The notes under the pieces are model-generated. The model searched no databases and had not been told where the DNA came from. It was given only the letters and a program-made list of their open reading frames with translations. Shown one piece after another: positions 4,171-21,306 of a DNA stretch of 64,000 nt (position 1 is the stretch's first letter; every line of letters begins with the position of its first letter). A program made the translations under genes and the position numbers. Source of the DNA: an uncultured Sphingomonadaceae bacterium (lineage in GTDB: Bacteria; Pseudomonadota; Alphaproteobacteria; Sphingomonadales; Sphingomonadaceae); the NCBI GenBank assembly GCA_947501695.1, contig CANMWO010000002.1, positions 310,001 through 374,000 of the forward strand, in the 5' to 3' direction.

Positions 4171-4770
4171 TTAAGCGTAGCTGACTTGAACGTTCGCTTT
4201 TTTCCGCTTGCGCATGGCACCGCCAATAGCACCAAATCCAACAATCATGAACGCCCAGGTGGCTGGCTCAGGAACTGCAGCGACCGATGAAACATTGATA
4301 TTGTCGATATTTGCAGAGGTACCGTTTGCCGTCAAAATAAAGTCCAATTCGTCAATTGCACCCGCAAATCCAGCTATTGTGGTGAACATAGATGTTTGTG
4401 CTAAGCTGCCATTTAGCGAGAAAACGGAGACGCCGCCGAGGAAGCCGTTAACTTGGTATTCTGCAGAGCCGTTCGCGGCCGCCAGCTCAAATGAGTTAAA
4501 TTGAAAAGTTCCGCCACCAACACGAATGGCGCCAAATGGGCCGCCGCCAAAAACGGAGCCTACAACAAGACTGGGTGCCGGATTACCGAATAAATGTCCT
4601 TCAAAAACATCGCCGCCTGCAGCGTCGACAGTGAATCCATTTTCGGAATAAGGTCCAGCGAAAACATCACCATTTGATCCACCCAAATTGTCAAACGTGA
4701 TCACAGCTGCATTAGCCGCAGTAAAAGGCGCTAATGCCAGCGCGGCAGAAGCCAGAAGAAGTTTTTTCAT
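4171..4770 (-). CDS. PEPxxWA-CTERM sorting domain-containing exported protein
   Basis: Exported protein of 199 residues with a Sec signal peptide (LLLASAALALAPFTAANA). The middle is Gly/Phe/Asn-rich beta-sandwich-like sequence with no recognised enzyme motif. The C-terminus carries the PEP-CTERM sorting signal: VPEPATWA near residue 167, a hydrophobic helix (FMIVGFGAIGGA) and a basic tail (MRKRKK). This is the PEPxxWA variant common in sphingomonads, which targets the protein to an exosortase-like system and the cell surface or matrix. No exosortase lies in the window. The start is the ATG at 4770; the AGGGA ribosome site lies in the loop of an inverted repeat just upstream. Sorting class firm, function unknown. 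Confidence 0.85.
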   Translation of the reverse strand: MKKLLLASAALALAPFTAANAAVITFDNLGGSNGDVFAGPYSENGFTVDAAGGDVFEGHLFGNPAPSLVVGSVFGGGPFGAIRVGGGTFQFNSFELAAANGSAEYQVNGFLGGVSVFSLNGSLAQTSMFTTIAGFAGAIDELDFILTANGTSANIDNINVSSVAAVPEPATWAFMIVGFGAIGGAMRKRKKANVQVSYA

Positions 4771-4943: not shown

Positions 4944-5792
4944 TTAGCTAGGCCGCTCCGCCAGTAATGCCCGCACCAATGGCTGCAAATTTTCGTCATA
5001 ACGGGCTAGCATGACATGCTCCTCGGCAGTCTCAAAATGGCTGACCAGTTGTTTGCCGTTCCACCAGTGTAGCGCAATGGCCGGAGGATCTGCGACAATC
5101 ATATTGCGGCCATCAGGATTTTCGGGGTCTATCGGCTCCAGGTCGAACGCCACCTGCGGCGCGGTCGAGGCACAAATCGACAGGTTTGTACCTTCAAAGG
5201 AAGTGGAGATGTTGCGATGCAAATGACCGGTTATCAGGCCTTTGATCTGGTCATGACCCGCCATAGTGTCTGCCAGCACAGACACCCATGGCTCGCGGGG
5301 ATCCGTATTCATCCAAGCTATTCCGGATTCCACCGGCGGGTGATGCAATATCAATAAGGTCGGTTTATCCTGTTTCTCCGCCAGCCGGTCTGCCAGCCAT
5401 TGTGCGCGCTCCTCACAAAAAGCTCCACCGTGACGGCCTTCTTCGAGCGTATCGAGAAACAAGAGTCTGAGTGGGCCATCGTCAATTTCATATTGTACGA
5501 AGCCACCGGCTGTCGGCACATCTGGGAATTGCTTTCGAAACGGGCCACGTAGATCGTGATTTCCAAGGCACATATGAACCGGAAAAGGCAGGTTTGAAAA
5601 AGCCTCTTCCAATCGGATGTAACTATCCTGATCGCCGCGATCCACCAGATCACCGGTTGCCAGCAGCACATCTGGCTGCGGCGTCATCTCGCACAGAGAC
5701 TTGAGCGCCTGATCCAGGCGTTTACGGTTAAATTCAGACGGATTATCCGGGTCGAAACCCAGATGAATGTCCGTTACCTGCGCCAATAGCAT
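4944..5792 (-). CDS. class III cyclic-nucleotide-phosphodiesterase-like metallophosphatase (CpdA-like)
   Basis: Dinuclear-metal phosphoesterase of 282 residues. All blocks of the calcineurin-like fold are present in order: DIH near residue 8, GDLVDRG near 48, GNHD near 79, HHPP near 150, GHLH near 190. The family includes E. coli CpdA, which hydrolyses cAMP, and the residue pattern and length fit that subgroup. A good ribosome site (GGAGAGGGGAGG) precedes the ATG at 5792. It is the last gene of the operon starting at 11035, 27 nt after the decaheme cytochrome gene. Because the first gene of that operon has two cyclic-nucleotide-binding domains, a role in removing the activating nucleotide is attractive. 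Fold firm, substrate inferred. Confidence 0.82.
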   Translation of the reverse strand: MLLAQVTDIHLGFDPDNPSEFNRKRLDQALKSLCEMTPQPDVLLATGDLVDRGDQDSYIRLEEAFSNLPFPVHMCLGNHDLRGPFRKQFPDVPTAGGFVQYEIDDGPLRLLFLDTLEEGRHGGAFCEERAQWLADRLAEKQDKPTLLILHHPPVESGIAWMNTDPREPWVSVLADTMAGHDQIKGLITGHLHRNISTSFEGTNLSICASTAPQVAFDLEPIDPENPDGRNMIVADPPAIALHWWNGKQLVSHFETAEEHVMLARYDENLQPLVRALLAERPS

Positions 5793-5819
5793 GGGCGCCT
5801 CCCCTCTCCTTCGTCGCCT

Positions 5820-7688
5820 CTAGCGACTGGCAATTTTCTGCTTCCGTATCTTTACACTCAGCTTATCAGACGGTTTCAAGGCATCATTGTCATTTGCCAT
5901 TTTATCCTGCTTTTTGCGTTTGTCCTTTTGCTGCTCCTTGATCAACCAAGGCGCGCCGTCATCAGCATGATAATCATGACACATCGCGCATGTCGATGGA
6001 ACATCAGCGGTTTTCTGAAATTCACCACCATGGCATTCGCGGCAGGTCTTGATACCGGGCAACAGCAGATCGCGGGCATTATCCGACGTTGTTGCGGCAT
6101 GGCAGGAGGTACAATCCTCTTGAACATGCGCTTCATGGCTGAACCAGCCCTTGTGCATATAGCGGTCGGTCTGGGTCACAGGCTTAATTCCGTAATCCAC
6201 CCTGCCTCTTGCCGTCGGCGGAGTCACTCCGTGACAGTCGAAACATGCACCGCCACGCGAGAAGACTTGTTCTATAGCCAAATTTGCTCGGCTCGGCCGA
6301 AATTGGACAGCGCGGGCGTAATCGCTCGCTACCCTGTTGTCATTTTCAGCACCCGGACGGCGGCGTTTCATGCCGCCTAGGTTAATCGGCCGCGACGGGC
6401 CCGTGGAGCGATAGTAAGCACGCAGGTCAGCACGAACCATATCCGGTTCACCGTGACGCAACGTCCGCACGGTGCTGCCAATCTCTTCAAAGGCCAGGCT
6501 GTGGCACATGCTACAGTCTTCCTTCATGTCTACCGGTTCAAACCGCACGCCATTGGAATCCGGCGTATGACAATCCGCGCAGGCCAGCGAATCACCGAAA
6601 TCATATTTCGCCGACAATCGCCTTCCCATTTGAGCGACGCCGCCAGTTTTCGACATATGTACATCGTGCGGGAATTTCAGGCCGTTATATTCACTTGGCT
6701 TTTCATCCAATGAAACCCGCTTGCGTTCGGGGTTTTTGCCGCCCGGCTGAACCAACAGCGCAGGACGGAATTGGGGATGAGCAATTCCGAAATCAGAGGC
6801 ATTTTCAAGCTTAGTATCGGTCAAACGCCCGTCCATTCCCTCGTGACAATCTGCGCAGAATTTTTGCGCAGTAGGTTGCATAGCACCTTCGCCCTCATGC
6901 TCAGTGTGACATTCAACACACCTGCCGGGTGGTTTGTTAAAGGCCGATGCGAACGCCGCACCTACTTTTTCAAAACCTTCCGGTTCACCCACGGCGGTTA
7001 ACAAGCGATCTTTATCGGCATGATCATGCGCGTCATCTTCGTGGCAAGTGAGACAGGTCTTGTCCGTCACCGTCACAAAAGCGTCGACATGACATGCTTG
7101 GCAATCGCCTTCGAGGCTATGATGGGCCTCACTTAACTTACCGGATGACCACATAGTATCGGCATGGAAACCGTCTGGCCGCTCTTCGATACCCTTATAA
7201 GTCGCCCATGTATAAATCGGCCAGATCAGGAAAGCGGCGAGCGCAAGCCCGACAAAGCTCCAAGCACTGATCCGTTTACCGGGGAGCAGGCCCTTCAAAG
7301 TATATAGTGCGCCTTCTTCGCGGTCTTCGGCGGAATCGGATAAAGCCTCGACCCGTTTGACGGTCAAGATCACGCCTTCTTCGTCGTGACTGACCGATAT
7401 CACATGACCGCCGAAGCCCAGCTCTGCTCCTTTGGAGGGATCAATCGTCGCGGCCATTTTCTCTCGGCCATCGACCGAGAATTTCTGACCCGAAATACTC
7501 TCAACTTCAATCTGACCATCATCCAGTTGTCGAATAACGGCATGGTCAGGATTAACAGCAAGATCGGGCAAGTGAATTGCGTTTGCGGAATTCCGACCAA
7601 CTCCAATCTGAGTATCAGCAAAAGGATTGGAGCGGATAATCTCGCGGCCATCGGCAGTTACGGCAATTTGGCGAACGATAAATGTCAT
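5820..7688 (-). CDS. FHA domain - TM - decaheme c-type cytochrome fusion
   Basis: A 622-residue fusion. Residues about 1-110 form a forkhead-associated (FHA) fold with the Gly-Arg at 31-32; the usual Ser-Arg before the conserved His is replaced by Asn-Pro-Asp-His (46-49). One membrane helix spans about 142-162. The rest holds ten CxxCH heme motifs (CQACH, CLTCH, CVECH, CADCH twice, CSMCH, CFDCH, CTSCH, CRECH, CAMCH) and resembles the cytochrome c3/c7 multiheme class. Topology should be FHA in the cytoplasm and hemes in the periplasm, with the helix acting as uncleaved signal anchor. A Lys-rich tail ends the protein. It lies 15 nt after the membrane b-type gene and 27 nt before the phosphodiesterase gene. 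Heme count is seen directly; electron partner and phospho-binding are inference. Confidence 0.88.
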   Translation of the reverse strand: MTFIVRQIAVTADGREIIRSNPFADTQIGVGRNSANAIHLPDLAVNPDHAVIRQLDDGQIEVESISGQKFSVDGREKMAATIDPSKGAELGFGGHVISVSHDEEGVILTVKRVEALSDSAEDREEGALYTLKGLLPGKRISAWSFVGLALAAFLIWPIYTWATYKGIEERPDGFHADTMWSSGKLSEAHHSLEGDCQACHVDAFVTVTDKTCLTCHEDDAHDHADKDRLLTAVGEPEGFEKVGAAFASAFNKPPGRCVECHTEHEGEGAMQPTAQKFCADCHEGMDGRLTDTKLENASDFGIAHPQFRPALLVQPGGKNPERKRVSLDEKPSEYNGLKFPHDVHMSKTGGVAQMGRRLSAKYDFGDSLACADCHTPDSNGVRFEPVDMKEDCSMCHSLAFEEIGSTVRTLRHGEPDMVRADLRAYYRSTGPSRPINLGGMKRRRPGAENDNRVASDYARAVQFRPSRANLAIEQVFSRGGACFDCHGVTPPTARGRVDYGIKPVTQTDRYMHKGWFSHEAHVQEDCTSCHAATTSDNARDLLLPGIKTCRECHGGEFQKTADVPSTCAMCHDYHADDGAPWLIKEQQKDKRKKQDKMANDNDALKPSDKLSVKIRKQKIASR

Positions 7689-7703
7689 GTCTCTATCTCC
7701 CGC

Positions 7704-8585
7704 TTACCAGTAAAAGAAAACACTGATGATATGCGCCGACAGCGACGCGATCAGGGCAAAAGTCATGGGTACATGGATGAACAGCCAGACCTGTAAAAGA
7801 GCCTTAAGCCTGAGATGGCGGCGCACCCGGCCGAGTGTCGCCTCCTTCTTCTGCAGCAATGCATCGACCTTATCGAGCGGATCGTCACCGCCCATACGCG
7901 GTTGATAAGCGCGTTCCCGCCGCAAATCAGCCTGCGCAGCGCGGGTAGCGCAATTGGGATATTTTCCAGAAACCCGTTTCAAAAAACCGCCGCCGAAGGG
8001 ATCTTGTTCCAGCGATTGCAACACCAAAGCGGCATGTTCCGCCGACAGGGGTTGCGACGCTTCATGCAATTGCCGGTCGAGCGAACGAAGACTTTCGAGC
8101 ATCTGCGTTTCGGTCATCTCATCGCGGTTATTGGAAAGCGCTTGCGGGATTGTGGCGTAGAAATAAATGCCAACTATTCCAGAGATGATGACGATCATCA
8201 TGAACGCATAAGCGGCCGTGTGGATGTTCCAACCAAATTGGAAACCAGTATGCAATGTGCCAATAACAATGAGACTGAGGCCGAGATAAATATGCGCCGA
8301 TGTCCAGGCTTTTAGCGACCACTGCCCCGATGTCATTGCCCGCTTACGGACCCCGAGCATCGTGAGCCACAGGATCAACCCTGCGCCAATCGTGCCCAGC
8401 AAATAGCCATACCAGCTACCACCGTTATGGCGCGGTGACACGTCGATGAAGAGATAGCTGACTATACAGATCAGCATGATGAAAGATGCGATTTTCAACC
8501 AGCGATAACCGGCATGTTTCAGAAAGCCGTCGTGCATGGCGACTTTCTTTTTCGAACCACCGCCGGGGACAGGAACAGAAGCCAT
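7704..8585 (-). CDS. five-helix membrane protein, probable b-type cytochrome partner
   Basis: Integral membrane protein of 293 residues with helices near 29-49, 58-80, 94-116, 122-147 and 262-292, separated by a roughly 110-residue soluble loop after helix four. Intramembrane or boundary histidines H98, H112, H122, H271 and H285 could ligate one or two b hemes, as in cytochrome b561/ferric-reductase-like quinone oxidoreductases. Its start overlaps the upstream stop (TAATG), implying translational coupling to the oxidoreductase gene, and the decaheme gene follows after 15 nt. The natural reading is the membrane link between a cytosolic Fe-S/FAD module and the periplasmic decaheme. I do not recognise a named family; heme binding is inferred from His placement. 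Confidence 0.72.
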   Translation of the reverse strand: MASVPVPGGGSKKKVAMHDGFLKHAGYRWLKIASFIMLICIVSYLFIDVSPRHNGGSWYGYLLGTIGAGLILWLTMLGVRKRAMTSGQWSLKAWTSAHIYLGLSLIVIGTLHTGFQFGWNIHTAAYAFMMIVIISGIVGIYFYATIPQALSNNRDEMTETQMLESLRSLDRQLHEASQPLSAEHAALVLQSLEQDPFGGGFLKRVSGKYPNCATRAAQADLRRERAYQPRMGGDDPLDKVDALLQKKEATLGRVRRHLRLKALLQVWLFIHVPMTFALIASLSAHIISVFFYW

Positions 8586-11035
8586 TATGCGTCCTCCTGC
8601 TCAAGTTTGGCGACCGTTAAGAACTCTTCTGGTGCTACCCGGATGGCCGCACCAGTTGGACAAGCGCGGACGCAGGCGGGACCACCTTTAATGCCAGCGC
8701 ACATATCGCATTTGATCGCTTTTTTGGGTTTCTCGACAGCTGGGTCGCTATTATCGGAAACCCATTTTTTGTCAGCTTCGCCAGGACCAGGGCCAAAGCC
8801 AAAGAGTAGCCAGTTAAGAATTCCGGGTTTTTCTGGTGGCACTTTGTCCATGCGAATCACGCCATAGGGGCAATAGCGCTGGCAATTACCGCAGCCAATG
8901 CAAGTGTCGTCGATAAACACTTCACCGTCGGGACCACGATGGATCGCGTCTGGCGGACAGTCGGACATGCAATGCGGATGCTCGCAATGACGGCAACTGG
9001 TAGGAACATGAAGATGCGCATAGGTACGCCCGGCCTCTCGGTCGAGACGGGACAGTCCTTCATGGCTGTCCGCACAGGCCTTCTCGCAATTGTCACAACC
9101 GACGCAGAGATTTTCGTCGATAAGAAGCACATCGGTCGCTTCGCCAATGCCATTGTCGACGAGGAAATTGGCGACACCGGAATAATAATCGACAACACCG
9201 GAAAAACTGTCTTTCTTGGCTTCGATAAAGGCGTTGACATCCTGCCGTGCGGCCATGTCTTTCTTGGCGCGACGAAGCAGATCGGGATGGGCGTCGAGCA
9301 CTTTCTTAAACGCATCACCCTGAATTTTGATCACTTCGGATTTAATCGCGGCCTTCACCGTTGCCGTACGCATACCGCCAGCAATAAGGGTCATCTCGCC
9401 GACATAGGAACCGGCTGGCAGGTAGGATAGAAACACCGGCTTGCCGCCAATTTCCTTTTCAACCACCATAGACCCGACGCGGATCACATAGATGTCATTG
9501 CCATCATCGCCTTCGTTGATAATCGCTTCGCCCGCGCGGACGTTCATAATCTCGCTGGTTTCAACCGCTTCGACTATATCTTCCTTGGTCAGGCCAGAGC
9601 CGAACATTTGCAGCAATTGCCGTTCGGTCGAAATGCGCGTGATCGCGCGCTTCGCAGCAGGCACAGAGGCCTGCAATTTCAGCGCAGCCGTTCGCGAAAC
9701 TTCAATCGCAATCATGTCTTCCGCCGCCCGAATGGTTGCACCGCGGCGGCGACCGGAGATTAGACCGACCTCGCCAAAGATAGACCCTTCTTCAATCGGA
9801 ATGACTTTCGAGCTGTCGTTCGGATCAATCTCGACCAGCACCGAGCCTTGAGCAATCGTGAATAGCGATGATCCGGGATCATTGCGTTCAAAAATCATCT
9901 CGCCATTACGATAGGCCAGCGGCTCACTATCGAGCATGAACTCGCGCATCTGCAAGGGGGATAGGTCGTTGAGGATGGTCACTTTCTCGCGGAAAAATTC
10001 GAGCCATTCTTCAACCGACTTGCCGCCAGGAAGCCCTGCAAATTTCTTCTCAAGAATCGGTTCATCGGCAGGCTTCAGTTCTTTATTGCCGTTGATAAAC
10101 TCAATGACATCATAGCCTTGGTTCATGCAATGCTTGATCAGCGGATATCCAGCCAGCGCGCCGATTACATAGATGCCCTTTTTGGTACTTTCAAAAGCAG
10201 GCGTCAGCTTGGGATAAGCCTCACGATCTTCGCTGGTAAATTCTATCCCGCATTCTTCAACAAATTTGCGCGGCGGGGCGGAACCCATGCGGGCGATGAT
10301 GCGATTGCAGGGGATTGTTTCCTGACCGTCACGAGTCTCGAGGATCAGCTCGCCATCTTTCACTTCCGCCGGTGTAGTCTCGTTGCGGATCATCACCTTG
10401 CCTTGTTCGCCCGCTTCCATCAGCAGCTTCACATTGGCCTTTTTCGCTCGGGCAAATTCGGCCGAACGGTTGAGGATGGTCACAATATTATTCTGTGCAG
10501 CATCGGCAGCCAACCCAAGTGCATTCTCGATTCCTGCATCACCTGAACCGATGACCGTAATATGCTCATCATAATATTCGCCGGGATCGTCCAGCTGATA
10601 TTGAACCAATTTATTGTCGCCTCCAGGGCAGCGCATCAGATTGGGGTTGCCCTGCGTTCCGATCGCCATGACGATGGTTTCCGCAAGGACTGTGTCGCCA
10701 TTTTTCAAGGTAATAGTGAAGTTGCCTTCTTCCCCCTCAATCTTCACCGGTTCGGCGTTATACTGGACGTTGACGCCGCAAACTTCGGTTTGCTTGTCCC
10801 ATGTGCCCAAAATAGCTTCGCGCTTGCCAGCATCAAAATCCATATCCGAACGCAGCACCAACTGGCTGGGCGTCGCCATGACATGCTTGCCTTTTTGATA
10901 TTTGTAGATCGTATCAGAAAGATGATCGGTCTTTTCGAGCAGCACATGTTTCAATTTTAACTGCGCAGCACGGCCAGCGGCACTCATGCCTGCCGGACCA
11001 GATCCCACGATCACTACTCGGAATTTATCAGCCAC
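8585..11035 (-). CDS. FAD/NAD(P) oxidoreductase - two cNMP-binding domains - four [4Fe-4S] fusion
   Basis: A three-module 816-residue cytosolic protein. Residues 1-320 are a two-dinucleotide-fold flavoprotein (GSGPAG at 11-16, GSGDAG at 163-168) like thioredoxin-reductase/YpdA relatives but without a CxxC redox disulfide. Residues about 360-470 and 475-595 are two cyclic-nucleotide-binding domains; both keep the phosphate-cassette Gly-Glu (421-422, 546-547) and the Arg of RxAT (431, 556). Residues 640-800 hold four ferredoxin-type Cys clusters (C644, C681, C712 and C776 onward), as in DmsB/HycB electron-transfer subunits. The GTG start at 11035 follows a GGGGGG ribosome site. First gene of a four-gene operon. 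It likely moves electrons between a pyridine nucleotide and the membrane partner under cyclic-nucleotide control; modules are seen, direction and partner inferred. Confidence 0.88.
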   Translation of the reverse strand: MADKFRVVIVGSGPAGMSAAGRAAQLKLKHVLLEKTDHLSDTIYKYQKGKHVMATPSQLVLRSDMDFDAGKREAILGTWDKQTEVCGVNVQYNAEPVKIEGEEGNFTITLKNGDTVLAETIVMAIGTQGNPNLMRCPGGDNKLVQYQLDDPGEYYDEHITVIGSGDAGIENALGLAADAAQNNIVTILNRSAEFARAKKANVKLLMEAGEQGKVMIRNETTPAEVKDGELILETRDGQETIPCNRIIARMGSAPPRKFVEECGIEFTSEDREAYPKLTPAFESTKKGIYVIGALAGYPLIKHCMNQGYDVIEFINGNKELKPADEPILEKKFAGLPGGKSVEEWLEFFREKVTILNDLSPLQMREFMLDSEPLAYRNGEMIFERNDPGSSLFTIAQGSVLVEIDPNDSSKVIPIEEGSIFGEVGLISGRRRGATIRAAEDMIAIEVSRTAALKLQASVPAAKRAITRISTERQLLQMFGSGLTKEDIVEAVETSEIMNVRAGEAIINEGDDGNDIYVIRVGSMVVEKEIGGKPVFLSYLPAGSYVGEMTLIAGGMRTATVKAAIKSEVIKIQGDAFKKVLDAHPDLLRRAKKDMAARQDVNAFIEAKKDSFSGVVDYYSGVANFLVDNGIGEATDVLLIDENLCVGCDNCEKACADSHEGLSRLDREAGRTYAHLHVPTSCRHCEHPHCMSDCPPDAIHRGPDGEVFIDDTCIGCGNCQRYCPYGVIRMDKVPPEKPGILNWLLFGFGPGPGEADKKWVSDNSDPAVEKPKKAIKCDMCAGIKGGPACVRACPTGAAIRVAPEEFLTVAKLEQEDA

Positions 11036-11313
11036 GCGCTATTATTCCCCCCTTTTACTGTATCAGTCCAACGCTCCCTCATGCGTTTTTACAGACCAAT
11101 GCAGTAGTTTTTTTGGCTTAAGCGCGACCCCAAAAGACTTCACTTACCAGCATCTTACCAAAAAGCTTTTGATAAGCCAGTGGAAAATATCACAGTTTAG
11201 GCTACCGCTTAGACTATCGACATAGAGCAACAAAATACTTGTCAAAGCGACACAGATTACGACAATGCAAAGCGATCACCCGGGTTGCACCAATTGAGGA
11301 ATGAGTTTTAGAC
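11036..11313. promoter_or_regulatory. divergent promoter region of the redox operon and the TPR gene
   Basis: A 278-bp AT-richer gap between divergent starts that must hold both promoters. I looked for an FNR/FixK box (TTGAT-N4-ATCAA) or a Crp-type TGTGA-N6-TCACA palindrome and found no convincing match. A near-palindrome around AAAAGCTTTT (11162-11171) is visible. No gene is apparent. Confidence 0.45.
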
Positions 11314-12309
11314 ATGAGCGAGCCAGAACAACCTGCACAACCCGCAAAAAAATCAAACGGCAACATTAGCCGTATCGCCTTGATATTGGCAGCAATTTTA
11401 GCCGTCGGCGCAGTCGGTGTGCAGGTCTATCGCAGCATGGATGCCGGGAGTTCGAGCGATAGCACCGGTCCAGAAGTAGCCGCTGGCGAGACCGAACAAG
11501 CCCCCAGCGTCGATGAAGTCATCGCCGGGCTAGAGAAAAAACTACAGGATGATCCCAAGGATGCCGAAAGCTGGCGGATGCTAGGCTGGAGCTATTTCGA
11601 GACCCAGAAATTTGCCGAATCCGCTACCGCTATGAAACGCGCGACTACACTCGATCCCAAGAATCCAGAATATTGGTCGATGCTGGGTGAGGCGCTGGTC
11701 ATGGCTAGCGATGGTCAGCAAGTCCCTGCCGATGCCGCCGACGCGTTTAAAAAAGCTCTTGCTCTAGACAAGACAGATCCACGCGCGCGCTATTTCCTGG
11801 CGGTACAAAAAGATATTTCAGGCGACCATCAGGGCGCGATTAATGACTGGTTCGCTTTGCTCGAAGACACGCCCGCCGATGCGCCTTATGCCGGAGATAT
11901 CCGAAGGGTTATCGGGCAGGTGGCCGAGAAAGAGAATATCGACGTCGCTGCACGCCTCGCCAAAGTCGCGCCCGCAGCACCCACCGGCGGGATATCCACT
12001 GACGGCCCGCAAGTTGCAACCGCAGCGATTCCCGGTCCCAGCCGTGAGCAGATGCAGGACGCCGCTGCCTTGCCCGCTGGCCAGCAGGAAGCGATGATCG
12101 CCAATATGGTCGATGGACTCGACAAACGACTCCAATCCGAACCCAATGATGCCAACGGCTGGATCATGCTGATGCGCAGTCGTCAGCAATTGGGTCAAAC
12201 GGTCAAAGCCAAAAAGGCATTGGCTGACGGACTGGCCGCATTCAAAAATGATGGCGCAGAGGCGAAGCGGATCAGAGAGGCTGGAATGGCGTTAGGTGTT
12301 GGGGGATAG
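11314..12309 (+). CDS. membrane-anchored TPR protein, CcmI/CycH-like
   Basis: A protein of 331 residues: a short Pro/Gln/Lys-rich cytosolic N-terminus, one membrane helix (about residues 20-38, IALILAAILAVGAVGVQVY) and periplasmic tetratricopeptide repeats. Two to three repeats are clear near residues 70-190 (ESWRMLGWSYFETQKF, EYWSMLGEALVMA, ARYFLAVQKDISGDHQ) and one more near 275-320. This layout matches the TPR module of CcmI/CycH/NrfG, which presents apocytochromes to heme lyase. Divergence from a decaheme cytochrome operon makes a helper role in multiheme maturation plausible. The other ccm genes are absent here, so it could also be a general TPR scaffold. Confidence 0.7.
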   Translation: MSEPEQPAQPAKKSNGNISRIALILAAILAVGAVGVQVYRSMDAGSSSDSTGPEVAAGETEQAPSVDEVIAGLEKKLQDDPKDAESWRMLGWSYFETQKFAESATAMKRATTLDPKNPEYWSMLGEALVMASDGQQVPADAADAFKKALALDKTDPRARYFLAVQKDISGDHQGAINDWFALLEDTPADAPYAGDIRRVIGQVAEKENIDVAARLAKVAPAAPTGGISTDGPQVATAAIPGPSREQMQDAAALPAGQQEAMIANMVDGLDKRLQSEPNDANGWIMLMRSRQQLGQTVKAKKALADGLAAFKNDGAEAKRIREAGMALGVGG

Positions 12310-20035: not shown

Positions 20036-20299
20036 TTAGTCGGCTTGGGCGGAATTTCCAAGCAGATCATGTGTCAGCCACAAGCGGATCGCTGTGGCAA
20101 GGCCCGGCGGTTCATTGGCATCCAGCCGCTGAACGTCAATTTGCGCTACCAAAGCATTAATCGGCACACCTTGTTTTTCTGCCGCCGTTCTGAGCAATTC
20201 CCAGAATAAGGGCTCCAGCGTGATCGACGTTTGATGGCCGGCGATCGTGATACTGCGCTTGACCGGCGGATGAAAAATATCTTGTGTATCTAAATCCAT
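20036..20299 (-). CDS. ribbon-helix-helix domain protein
   Basis: An 87-residue protein with a short beta strand (VKRSITIAGHQTSITLE) and two helices (LFWELLRTAAEKQGVPINALVAQID), the pattern of the alphaproteobacterial RHH_4 class. It is probably a DNA-binding dimer or a small scaffold. Its start overlaps the hemH stop by 10 nt, unusual for a regulator and pointing to coupled expression. No toxin partner is adjacent, so an antitoxin reading is not supported. Confidence 0.78.
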   Translation of the reverse strand: MDLDTQDIFHPPVKRSITIAGHQTSITLEPLFWELLRTAAEKQGVPINALVAQIDVQRLDANEPPGLATAIRLWLTHDLLGNSAQAD

Positions 20300-21306
20300 C
20301 CAGCCAGTTCCCGGCGCACCAGATTGTCGAGCAGATCTATACCGATATCGCTGTCATTGAGACAAGGTATATAGGCAAAACGCTCCCCGCCCGCGGCCTC
20401 GAAATCTTCTTTGCCGCGTATCGCCAACTCTTCGCAGGTTTCCAGACAATCGCTCGAAAATCCCGGTGCAAATATGGCGACTTTTTTCTTGCCCTGTTGG
20501 GCCAATTCTTCGAGCGTCAGATCAGTGGCTGGCTCCAGCCATTTAGCCGGACCAAAGCGGGACTGGAAAGCAATGGTCAGCTCTCGCCCCATTGCTTCCG
20601 ACAATAGCCGCGCTGTTTTCTGGCAATGACAATGATAAGGATCGCCCAATTCCAATGTCCGTTTCGGCATACCATGAAAACTCGCAATCACTGCGTCCGG
20701 TTCAAAATCCAAGGCTGCAAGACCAGCCTCCAAGCTGGATTTCAACGCCGCGATATAGAAGGTGTCATCATGATAAGGTGGCAACATGCGGATCGCTGGT
20801 TGCCAGCGCATCGTCTTGACCGCATCAAAAACCGCATCATGCACGCTGGCTGTCGTCGCACCGCTATATTGGGGATAAAGCGGTGCCACCAAGATCCGTT
20901 CACAACCCGCATCTTTCAATGCCTGCAAGCGACTGGGAACGCTAGGATTACCATAGCGCATCGCCCAGTCGACGTGAACATCATCGCCATATTTGCCCGC
21001 CAGCGCCTCTGCCTGACGCCGCGTATAAACAGCAAGAGGTGAACCTTCGTCGGTCCATACCAAGCTATACGCATGGGCCGACTTTTTGGGGCGCGTATTC
21101 AGGATTATCCCGCGCAATATCGGCTGCCAGAGAATATCCGGGATTTCGACAACCCGTTTGTCAGACAGAAATTGCTTCAGATAGCGTTTCACCGCTTTTT
21201 TATTCGGTGCATCCGGGGTCCCGAGATTGACCAACAAGAGCCCAACCTTCCCAGTTTTTACCGTAGGATGCCCAGCGGGCAAATGATCAAGCGTCTGCAT
21301 AGTCAT
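20290..21306 (-). CDS. hemH: ferrochelatase
   Basis: Last step of heme synthesis: inserts ferrous iron into protoporphyrin IX at the inner membrane face. 338 residues, normal length. Recognised by GKVGLLLVNLGTPDAP, the YGNPSVPS segment, VAPLYPQYSGATTASVHDAV, the catalytic-His motif ASFHGMPKRTLELGDPYHCH and the acidic-site region FAPGFSSDCLETCEELAIRG. The CHC pair near residue 220 is typical of alphaproteobacterial enzymes. Start overlaps the molybdenum hydroxylase gene by 4 nt. Confidence 0.96.
   Translation of the reverse strand: MTMQTLDHLPAGHPTVKTGKVGLLLVNLGTPDAPNKKAVKRYLKQFLSDKRVVEIPDILWQPILRGIILNTRPKKSAHAYSLVWTDEGSPLAVYTRRQAEALAGKYGDDVHVDWAMRYGNPSVPSRLQALKDAGCERILVAPLYPQYSGATTASVHDAVFDAVKTMRWQPAIRMLPPYHDDTFYIAALKSSLEAGLAALDFEPDAVIASFHGMPKRTLELGDPYHCHCQKTARLLSEAMGRELTIAFQSRFGPAKWLEPATDLTLEELAQQGKKKVAIFAPGFSSDCLETCEELAIRGKEDFEAAGGERFAYIPCLNDSDIGIDLLDNLVRRELAGWI

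Follow-up and report, generated by a model that had tools for sequence, protein, structure and literature searches.

Genes at the locus

The window analysed here is a stretch of 64,000 nucleotides from an uncultured Sphingomonadaceae bacterium (assembly GCA_947501695.1, contig CANMWO010000002.1, hereafter C2, positions 310,001 to 374,000), and in this study we focus on four minus-strand open reading frames (ORFs) at window positions 4944-11035, named P1 to P4. The gene set of this marine bacterium looks like an electrical cable running from NAD(P)H across the inner membrane toward the cell surface, equipped with sensors for cyclic AMP or cyclic GMP (cAMP, cGMP). The genes and their main parts are the following:

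8585..11035, minus strand: P1, NAD(P)H/flavin adenine dinucleotide (FAD) reductase with two cyclic-nucleotide (cNMP)-binding domains and four [4Fe-4S] sites, 816 residues, GTG start, predicted cytoplasmic (Pfam, conserved residues)
10115..11023, minus strand: FAD/NAD(P)-binding module of P1, residues 5-307 (Pyr_redox_2/3, both dinucleotide motifs)
9674..9916, minus strand: first cNMP-binding domain of P1 (C2:319674-319916)
9287..9544, minus strand: second cNMP-binding domain of P1 (C2:319287-319544)
8636..9127, minus strand: four-cluster ferredoxin-like region of P1, residues 637-800 (Pfam, cluster cysteines)
7704..8585, minus strand: P2, five-helix membrane protein, predicted to carry two b hemes, 293 residues (motifs, topology, structure model)
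5820..7688, minus strand: P3, FHA-like domain, one transmembrane (TM) helix and periplasmic decaheme cytochrome c, 622 residues (Pfam, motifs)
7464..7601, minus strand: FHA core of P3, residues 30-75 (Pfam, alignment)
5976..7103, minus strand: ten CXXCH motifs of P3, residues 196-571
4944..5792, minus strand: P4, class III cyclic-nucleotide phosphodiesterase-like protein (SpdA/CpdA-like), a lineage-specific addition, 282 residues (Pfam Metallophos, motifs)

An earlier note, made from the sequence alone, had described four minus-strand genes across 4944-11035 with spacings of -1, 15 and 27 nt, and the ORF list bears it out. Its domain assignments are likewise supported by Pfam or motif matches for P1 (Pyr_redox, two cNMP_binding, Fer4), P3 (ten CXXCH) and P4 (Metallophos), the FHA domain of P3 scoring below the cut-off.

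The flavin, cyclic-nucleotide and iron-sulfur protein P1

In P1, Pfam detects Pyr_redox, two cNMP_binding stretches, Fer4 domains and PF13247, and the cNMP domains lie between the flavin and cluster modules. Among 80 aligned rows, window included (750-1300 residues, at least 600 bits), the 16 cluster cysteines are invariant, as are Glu422/Arg431 and Glu547/Arg556 of the two cNMP pockets. We take Glu and Arg in the phosphate-binding cassette to be the mark of a ligand-binding cNMP domain (PF00027); both P1 domains have them, and both pockets are competent-looking as judged from these residues. The FAD module conserves R190 (80/80), F194 (80/80) and K198 (78/80), which we take, by analogy, to be NADPH-like. 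P1 was rejected as a thioredoxin or bacillithiol disulfide reductase, the five cysteines of its FAD module including no CXXC pair and no invariant member; the YpdA model gives 117.9 bits for a cut-off of 339.9. A search of viral contigs with P1 returned no relative.

The membrane protein P2 and the decaheme cytochrome P3

P2 contains five hydrophobic stretches, with charges that fit an N-in topology, and displays the motifs W94-H98-X13-H112, W267-H271-X13-H285 and S135-G-x-x-G139. Its five histidines are invariant, except for one gap, among 86 rows (250-400 residues, at least 100 bits), and this diheme-b motif pair predicts that P2 holds two b hemes. The structure model has a predicted local distance difference test score (pLDDT) of 82.7; since the best rows of the structure search are soluble helical proteins, that search serves as a consistency note only. 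An ordinary cytochrome b561 was considered and rejected (Pfam score 16.4, cut-off 30.1). P2 is 99% identical to a protein of an uncultured Sphingomonadaceae genome, 96% to that of Sphingorhabdus sp. EL138 and 91% to that of Parasphingorhabdus marina, which makes the source genome Sphingorhabdus/Parasphingorhabdus-like.

P3 matches Cytochrome_C7/c3 domains, and its strongest hydrophobic stretch spans residues 140-163. Ten CXXCH motifs are found in 82 of the 88 aligned rows (450-720 residues, at least 100 bits). The FHA-like domain scores 17.7 bits for a Pfam cut-off of 20.7; Gly-Arg is kept in 84/88 rows and the His in 82/88, the Asp/Asn-Gly pair partly, and the Ser of SxxH is not conserved. 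P3 therefore departs from what we take to be the phospho-threonine-binding FHA signature (Gly-Arg, Ser-x-x-His, Asn-Gly). The DmsE decaheme model reaches 19.5 bits, with a cut-off of 192.2.

P1, P2 and P3 form a conserved unit

In a phylum sample of 398 genomes, 38 contain a P2 match at E <= 0.001, 15 of them a strong one (E < 1e-30, the next best being 7.7e-11), and P1 is present at E < 1e-40 in exactly these 15 genomes, at most two P1 candidates being scored per genome. A scan of GTDB genomes with P2 gave 98 confirmed loci, the best 80 of which were kept: P3 follows P2 in 79, the exception (L067) lying at a contig end, and P1 precedes P2 in 74, one of the other six (L101) starting at P2. Among 101 loci examined, window included, the three genes are adjacent and on one strand in all 75 in which clustering called all three, and in two genomes (L032, L033) a single uninterrupted ORF encodes both P1 and P2. 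This arrangement is far beyond chance, and on these sequence comparisons P1-P2-P3 is a conserved unit. Hence the first three genes of the four-gene unit put forward in the earlier note hold together, while P4 adjoins them mainly in Sphingomonadales.

A distant outer-membrane module accompanies the unit

A second module lies outside the window, about 190 kb from P1-P3:

C2:113300-123045 (L131:3301-13046): f22-f7-f5-f6, comprising a c554-like cytochrome (f22, four CXXCH plus one CX4CH), an HbpS-like lipoprotein (f7), a predicted barrel (f5) and, adjoining f5, a large decaheme-LVIVD cytochrome (f6, 4.2 kb, 10 CXXCH)

Among the 199 genomes sampled from the family, 71 contain both P2 and f6, one contains f6 alone and 127 contain neither. 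This co-occurrence is near-perfect and includes unlinked cases; the core and the f5-bearing module are within 25 kb of each other in 35 of the 71, and several loci titled Gammaproteobacteria have the same-strand order P1-P2-P3-f7-f5-f6. Both halves of a candidate conduit are thus present in about a third of the sampled genomes of one family, and many of these 71 are presumably aerobes. We infer that f22-f7-f5-f6 is the partner of P3 in the source genome, so that P3 is probably not the end of the conduit, as the earlier note had placed it.

The model of an f5 ortholog is an 18-strand barrel resembling AlgE/OprD/MOMP pores, with modest confidence (pLDDT 61.5). MtrB, NarI and bc1 cytochrome b are not among the best 50 rows of the f5-ortholog and P2 structure searches, which is no proof of absence. 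The ExtM model matches f6 over one 51-residue stretch (68.5 bits, cut-off 800). In G458, G461, G469, G477, G524 and G538, the listed f6 match contains one internal stop codon, which may stem from inactivation, frame choice or sequence error. Genes for aldehyde dehydrogenase and acetolactate synthase directly precede the module, and both, together with one for NADP glutamate dehydrogenase, recur near P1-P3 in Caulobacterales-like loci.

Relationship with known porin-cytochrome complexes

The porin-cytochrome c complex PCC4 is described in the available text of He et al. (2017, PMC5566968) as a porin with three periplasmic cytochromes of 4, 5 and 10 hemes and an inner-membrane protein that has five TM helices, WX3HX13H twice (TM3 and TM5) and SGXXG in TM4; in Subgroup II, an Fe-S (PF13247) gene lies upstream of the inner-membrane protein. 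PCC4 was found there in genomes of Fe(II) oxidizers and modelled as conducting inward to the quinone pool. The main text of that paper contains none of the terms cyclic nucleotide, FAD and FHA; its supplementary figure of PCC4 domain architectures may show cNMP domains.

P2 has the same five helices, two WX3HX13H and SGXXG, and the Fe-S gene P1 lies upstream, overlapping P2 by 1 nt. For comparison, loci were examined in 18 of those 23 genomes whose P2 matches are all weak, plus two second hits, and PCC4-type ones were chosen by the PCC4 description and not by the accessions of the paper. Seven loci (L147-L150, L154-L156) unite genes for a reductase, a c554-like cytochrome, a cNMP-Fe-S protein, the inner-membrane protein and a decaheme cytochrome; the order of the first two varies, and there is a candidate porin in two loci and a five-heme ORF in three. 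A Pfam scan of four PCC4-type Fe-S proteins detects cNMP domains together with Fer4 clusters in each of them, and in the single reductase examined it finds FAD, NAD and 2Fe-2S domains. Profile alignment with hhalign gives 100% (E 5e-54) for P1 against the PCC4-type Fe-S protein, 99.7% for P3, 99.3% for f22 and 99.4% for P2 (eight PCC4-type proteins). The match of f6 to the five-heme set is local (82%), and f5 shows none (0.1%) to the two candidate porins.

The source genome thus resembles PCC4-type loci in its decaheme and c554-like cytochromes and in the cNMP domains of its Fe-S protein, and differs from them in several ways. In P1 the NAD(P)H/FAD module and the cNMP-Fe-S protein form one polypeptide, whereas the PCC4-type reductase is separate and has 2Fe-2S. 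P1 keeps both cNMP pockets; in the seven PCC4-type relatives, the first pocket has Glu in 6/7 and Arg in 7/7, while the second has neither (0/7). P3 carries an FHA-like domain where the PCC4-type decaheme protein has, by eye, a Cys-rich N-terminus. Instead of 4, 5 and 10 hemes, the source genome shows 10 (P3), 10 (f6) and the CXXCH and CX4CH set of f22, and f5 lacks a profile match to the candidate porins. From these profile and locus comparisons, P1-P3 would belong to a PCC4-related conduit in which the flavin module is fused, both cNMP sites are intact and the outer half is another. The statement in the earlier note that no described system has this composition is not sustained, P1, P2 and P3 being homologous to loci that fit PCC4.

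Other known systems share parts of this arrangement. A third type of P2 relative (L035:7431-8129, L037, L039, L152, L159:8573-9256, L160:5740-6426) adjoins an FAD/NAD/2Fe-2S reductase, with a 6-7-heme cytochrome in five of the six loci and no cNMP-Fe-S protein beside it within the stretches examined; G301 and G259 carry this type as well as P1-P3. These proteins, which are the closest P2 relatives by profile and differ from P2 in their partners, recall the five-helix HX13H proteins that the available text of He et al. places, without a porin, under 'Other multiheme cytochrome c' (PMC5566968). The group 1 complexes of metagenome-assembled genomes (MAGs) from Sterkfontein ghost-rock (2026, PMC13264449) are described with a decaheme gene of 4-5 kb that adjoins a porin of some 20 strands and, in 7 of 11 cases, a ferredoxin-NADP reductase gene nearby. 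The f6, f5 and P1 genes fit this account when compared by description, and group 1 probably has the same outer half as f5/f6; the main text of that paper uses none of the words 'cyclic', 'FHA' and 'NADPH'. PCC3 has a related inner-membrane protein (hhalign 98.8%), but its cytochromes have a median of 34 and 21 hemes, and the PCC3 descriptions in the available text of He et al. and of a Gallionellaceae survey (PMC10734462) contain no cNMP-Fe-S flavoprotein. An Erythrobacter appears under PCC3 in He et al. (PMC5566968) and may in fact carry the system described here. As an explanation PCC3 was rejected, a PCC3-like inner-membrane query matching strongly in a single one of the 199 family genomes (G512). 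The Geobacter Ext selenite/tellurite cluster also combines a porin with multiheme cytochromes and shares the local ExtM match of f6, but according to the available text (PMC5877670) its inner-membrane module is of Rieske/cytochrome b type, and f6 is mostly unmatched. As regards MtrCAB/MtoAB, with an MtrA/DmsE-type decaheme protein and an MtrB-type porin, the DmsE score of P3 is low and no MtrB is among the f5-ortholog structure rows listed. The ferric-reductase transmembrane domain of STEAP/NOX is also counted among the closest known systems.

Proposed electron path and its control

We consider it likely, from sequence comparison, that P1-P2-P3 forms the inner half of a conduit which is related to PCC4 and draws electrons from NAD(P)H. 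Electrons would pass from NAD(P)H to FAD and the four [4Fe-4S] clusters of cytoplasmic P1, then to two stacked b hemes of P2 in the inner membrane and to the ten c hemes of membrane-anchored P3 in the periplasm. From there, the periplasmic c554-like f22 would relay them to the outer-membrane barrel f5 with f6, which would reduce an acceptor in the outer periplasm or outside the cell. Binding of cAMP or cGMP to the two cNMP domains probably sets electron passage, through a conformational change that would open or close the path. Cofactor occupancy, the path, its outward direction, its gating and the terminal acceptor are all proposals of this model. The sequence FAD/Fe-S to heme b to c hemes was already in the earlier note; the diheme-b motif pair between P1 and P3 is in its favour, while direction and gating stay at the level of suggestion.

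Regulation of extracellular electron transfer by cAMP is known as a transcriptional effect, exerted through CRP in Shewanella. A second-messenger sensor inside the electron-input enzyme would, if true, act post-translationally, unlike CRP. We tentatively propose, with rather less confidence than for the conduit itself, that cAMP/cGMP binding between flavin and Fe-S clusters switches the output directly and fast, and that such control is general among PCC4-type conduits and was overlooked; the cNMP-Fe-S protein on a diheme-b/decaheme conduit is common to PCC4-type loci, and direct control would therefore be a property of the class. Our comparison further points to NAD(P)H as the electron source of PCC4-type conduits, in place of the quinone pool of the model given in the available text of PMC5566968. 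The candidate conduit is of an already known, little-studied kind; what appears new is an NAD(P)H-linked form, probably controlled by cyclic nucleotides. Among the open-licence literature titles listed, none links cyclic-nucleotide domains to multiheme or extracellular electron transfer as P1-P3 does, and none concerns Sphingomonadales conduits or LVIVD cytochromes; PCC4 is mentioned along with porin and cytochrome in two papers.

Alternative explanations

The cNMP domains could be structural or assembly modules and no gate, which we find doubtful. One site does seem dispensable in PCC4-type relatives, since their second pocket has lost Glu and Arg; against this stand the invariance of both pockets in P1, the conservation of the first pocket in the PCC4-type proteins and the three class III cyclase-domain genes of the source genome. 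An Ext-like role, with f5 as substrate channel and f6 as a periplasmic reductase that uses electrons from NAD(P)H on tellurite, selenite or metal ions, serving detoxification or redox balancing instead of conduction to the outside, seems unlikely, even though the weak local ExtM match of f6 and the pore-like model of f5 agree with it. Erythromonas ursincola, an aerobic phototroph which we take to belong to the same wider group as the source bacterium, is a further point for such a role: it reduces tellurite with an NADH-dependent membrane enzyme (PMC5488091). Against the Ext-like role, the available text on that enzyme gives subunits of 62 and 55 kDa and names no gene or heme, and the Ext inner-membrane parts are unlike P1 and P2.

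Reverse flow is less probable still. Electrons from extracellular Fe(II) or Mn(II) would enter through f6/f5 and P3, and P1 would make NAD(P)H or P2 reduce quinone, in line with the inward model of PCC4 in Fe(II) oxidizers. Passage from Fe(II) to NAD(P)H is, however, established to be thermodynamically uphill, and inward transfer to the negative-inside cytoplasm spends membrane potential; outward flow is favoured because it runs downhill from NAD(P)H and along the potential. The genera carrying P2 loci include ordinary aerobes, and PMC13264449 suggests, in its available text, that most MAGs bearing such complexes are heterotrophs that may export electrons. It is very improbable that P1-P3 alone supplies periplasmic electrons, for example to cytochrome c maturation or a periplasmic reductase, with f5-f6 as a coincidental co-traveller. 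Any of four ccm-type families, one named by Pfam and three by eye, is found near 45 of the 75 core loci (a CcmI/CycH-like TPR family near 34), and 3 of the 15 strong-P2 genomes are without f5/f6. Such neighbours may, however, merely reflect the need for heme attachment, and both the co-occurrence of P2 with f6 in unlinked cases and the gene order in the gammaproteobacterial loci argue against coincidence.

Several observations weigh against an NAD(P)H-fed, PCC4-related conduit ending in f5/f6. By hhalign, the P2 profile is closer to the third type (99.9%, E 5.7e-33) than to the PCC4-type (E 3.1e-21), so that it is chiefly P1 that carries the PCC4 link. P2-P3 is found with no adjacent P1, despite sufficient upstream DNA, in five loci whose titles name Gammaproteobacteria or a member of it (L096, L098, L104, L109, L112), and genome G001 has a second full-length P1 with no P2 or P3 beside it (L167:6485-8962). 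G153 (76% complete), G034 and G001 are without f5, and without f6 at the threshold used, and G244 has a weak f6 match and no P2. Fisher values for the co-occurrence are overstated because related species are not independent. The 18-strand barrel of f5 is, we assume, smaller than MtrB, and f5 may, from its model, be a substrate channel instead of a cytochrome sheath. No NCBIfam model matches f6 above cut-off.

P4, upstream sequences and neighbouring genes

P4 keeps the metal motifs DxH, GD, GNHD, HH and GHxH, which we take to be the class III metallophosphoesterase set, in all 49 aligned rows (250-400 residues, at least 150 bits), and it is the sole match of its kind in the genome at E <= 0.001. 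With taxon groups assigned from record titles, it adjoins P3 in 31 of 35 Sphingomonadales loci and in one other alphaproteobacterial locus (L071), while in 11 of the 15 Caulobacterales-like loci it lies at a distance of 4.8-5.6 kb; it was not seen in 29 of the remaining 30, a count limited by contig ends. P4 scores 80 bits with the CpdA NCBIfam equivalog (cut-off 225) and 139 with the SpdA model (cut-off 400), closer to the latter and below both cut-offs. The linked off-switch envisaged in the earlier note thus loses ground, adjacency being mainly a feature of Sphingomonadales and the scores favouring the 2',3'-cNMP phosphodiesterase SpdA over CpdA.

About 157 nt upstream of P1 there is a TGTGATATTTT(C/G)CACT-like sequence with 8/10 matches (single-locus p about 0.1-0.2). 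Of 34 rows, 17, all from close relatives, have it, two others show a less well matching form, and the remaining 15 lack it. A CRP-type site is not claimed there, conservation among close relatives alone being a possible explanation. Upstream of f22, a CRP-like site has 9/10 matches in the source genome and one other and is absent in 5/7. CRP-like palindromes are weak in both regions (window 11036-11313 and L131:3045-3300), and an exact-pattern scan for CRP-type sites found none; if the sites are real, both conduit halves would share a regulator. Terminator and promoter scans exceed shuffled sequence (13 vs 7.5 and 10 vs 5.4), but the matches are not read as operon ends because they are consensus matches only, some of them inside genes.

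Other genes of the window are:

11314..12309, plus strand: divergent CcmI/CycH-like TPR protein, cytochrome c maturation (Pfam TPR_CcmH_CycH)
20290-21306: gene for ferrochelatase, an enzyme of heme synthesis, at about 9 kb from the conduit genes

Downstream of P4 and on the same strand, a gene for a PEPxxWA-CTERM protein occupies window positions 4171-4770.

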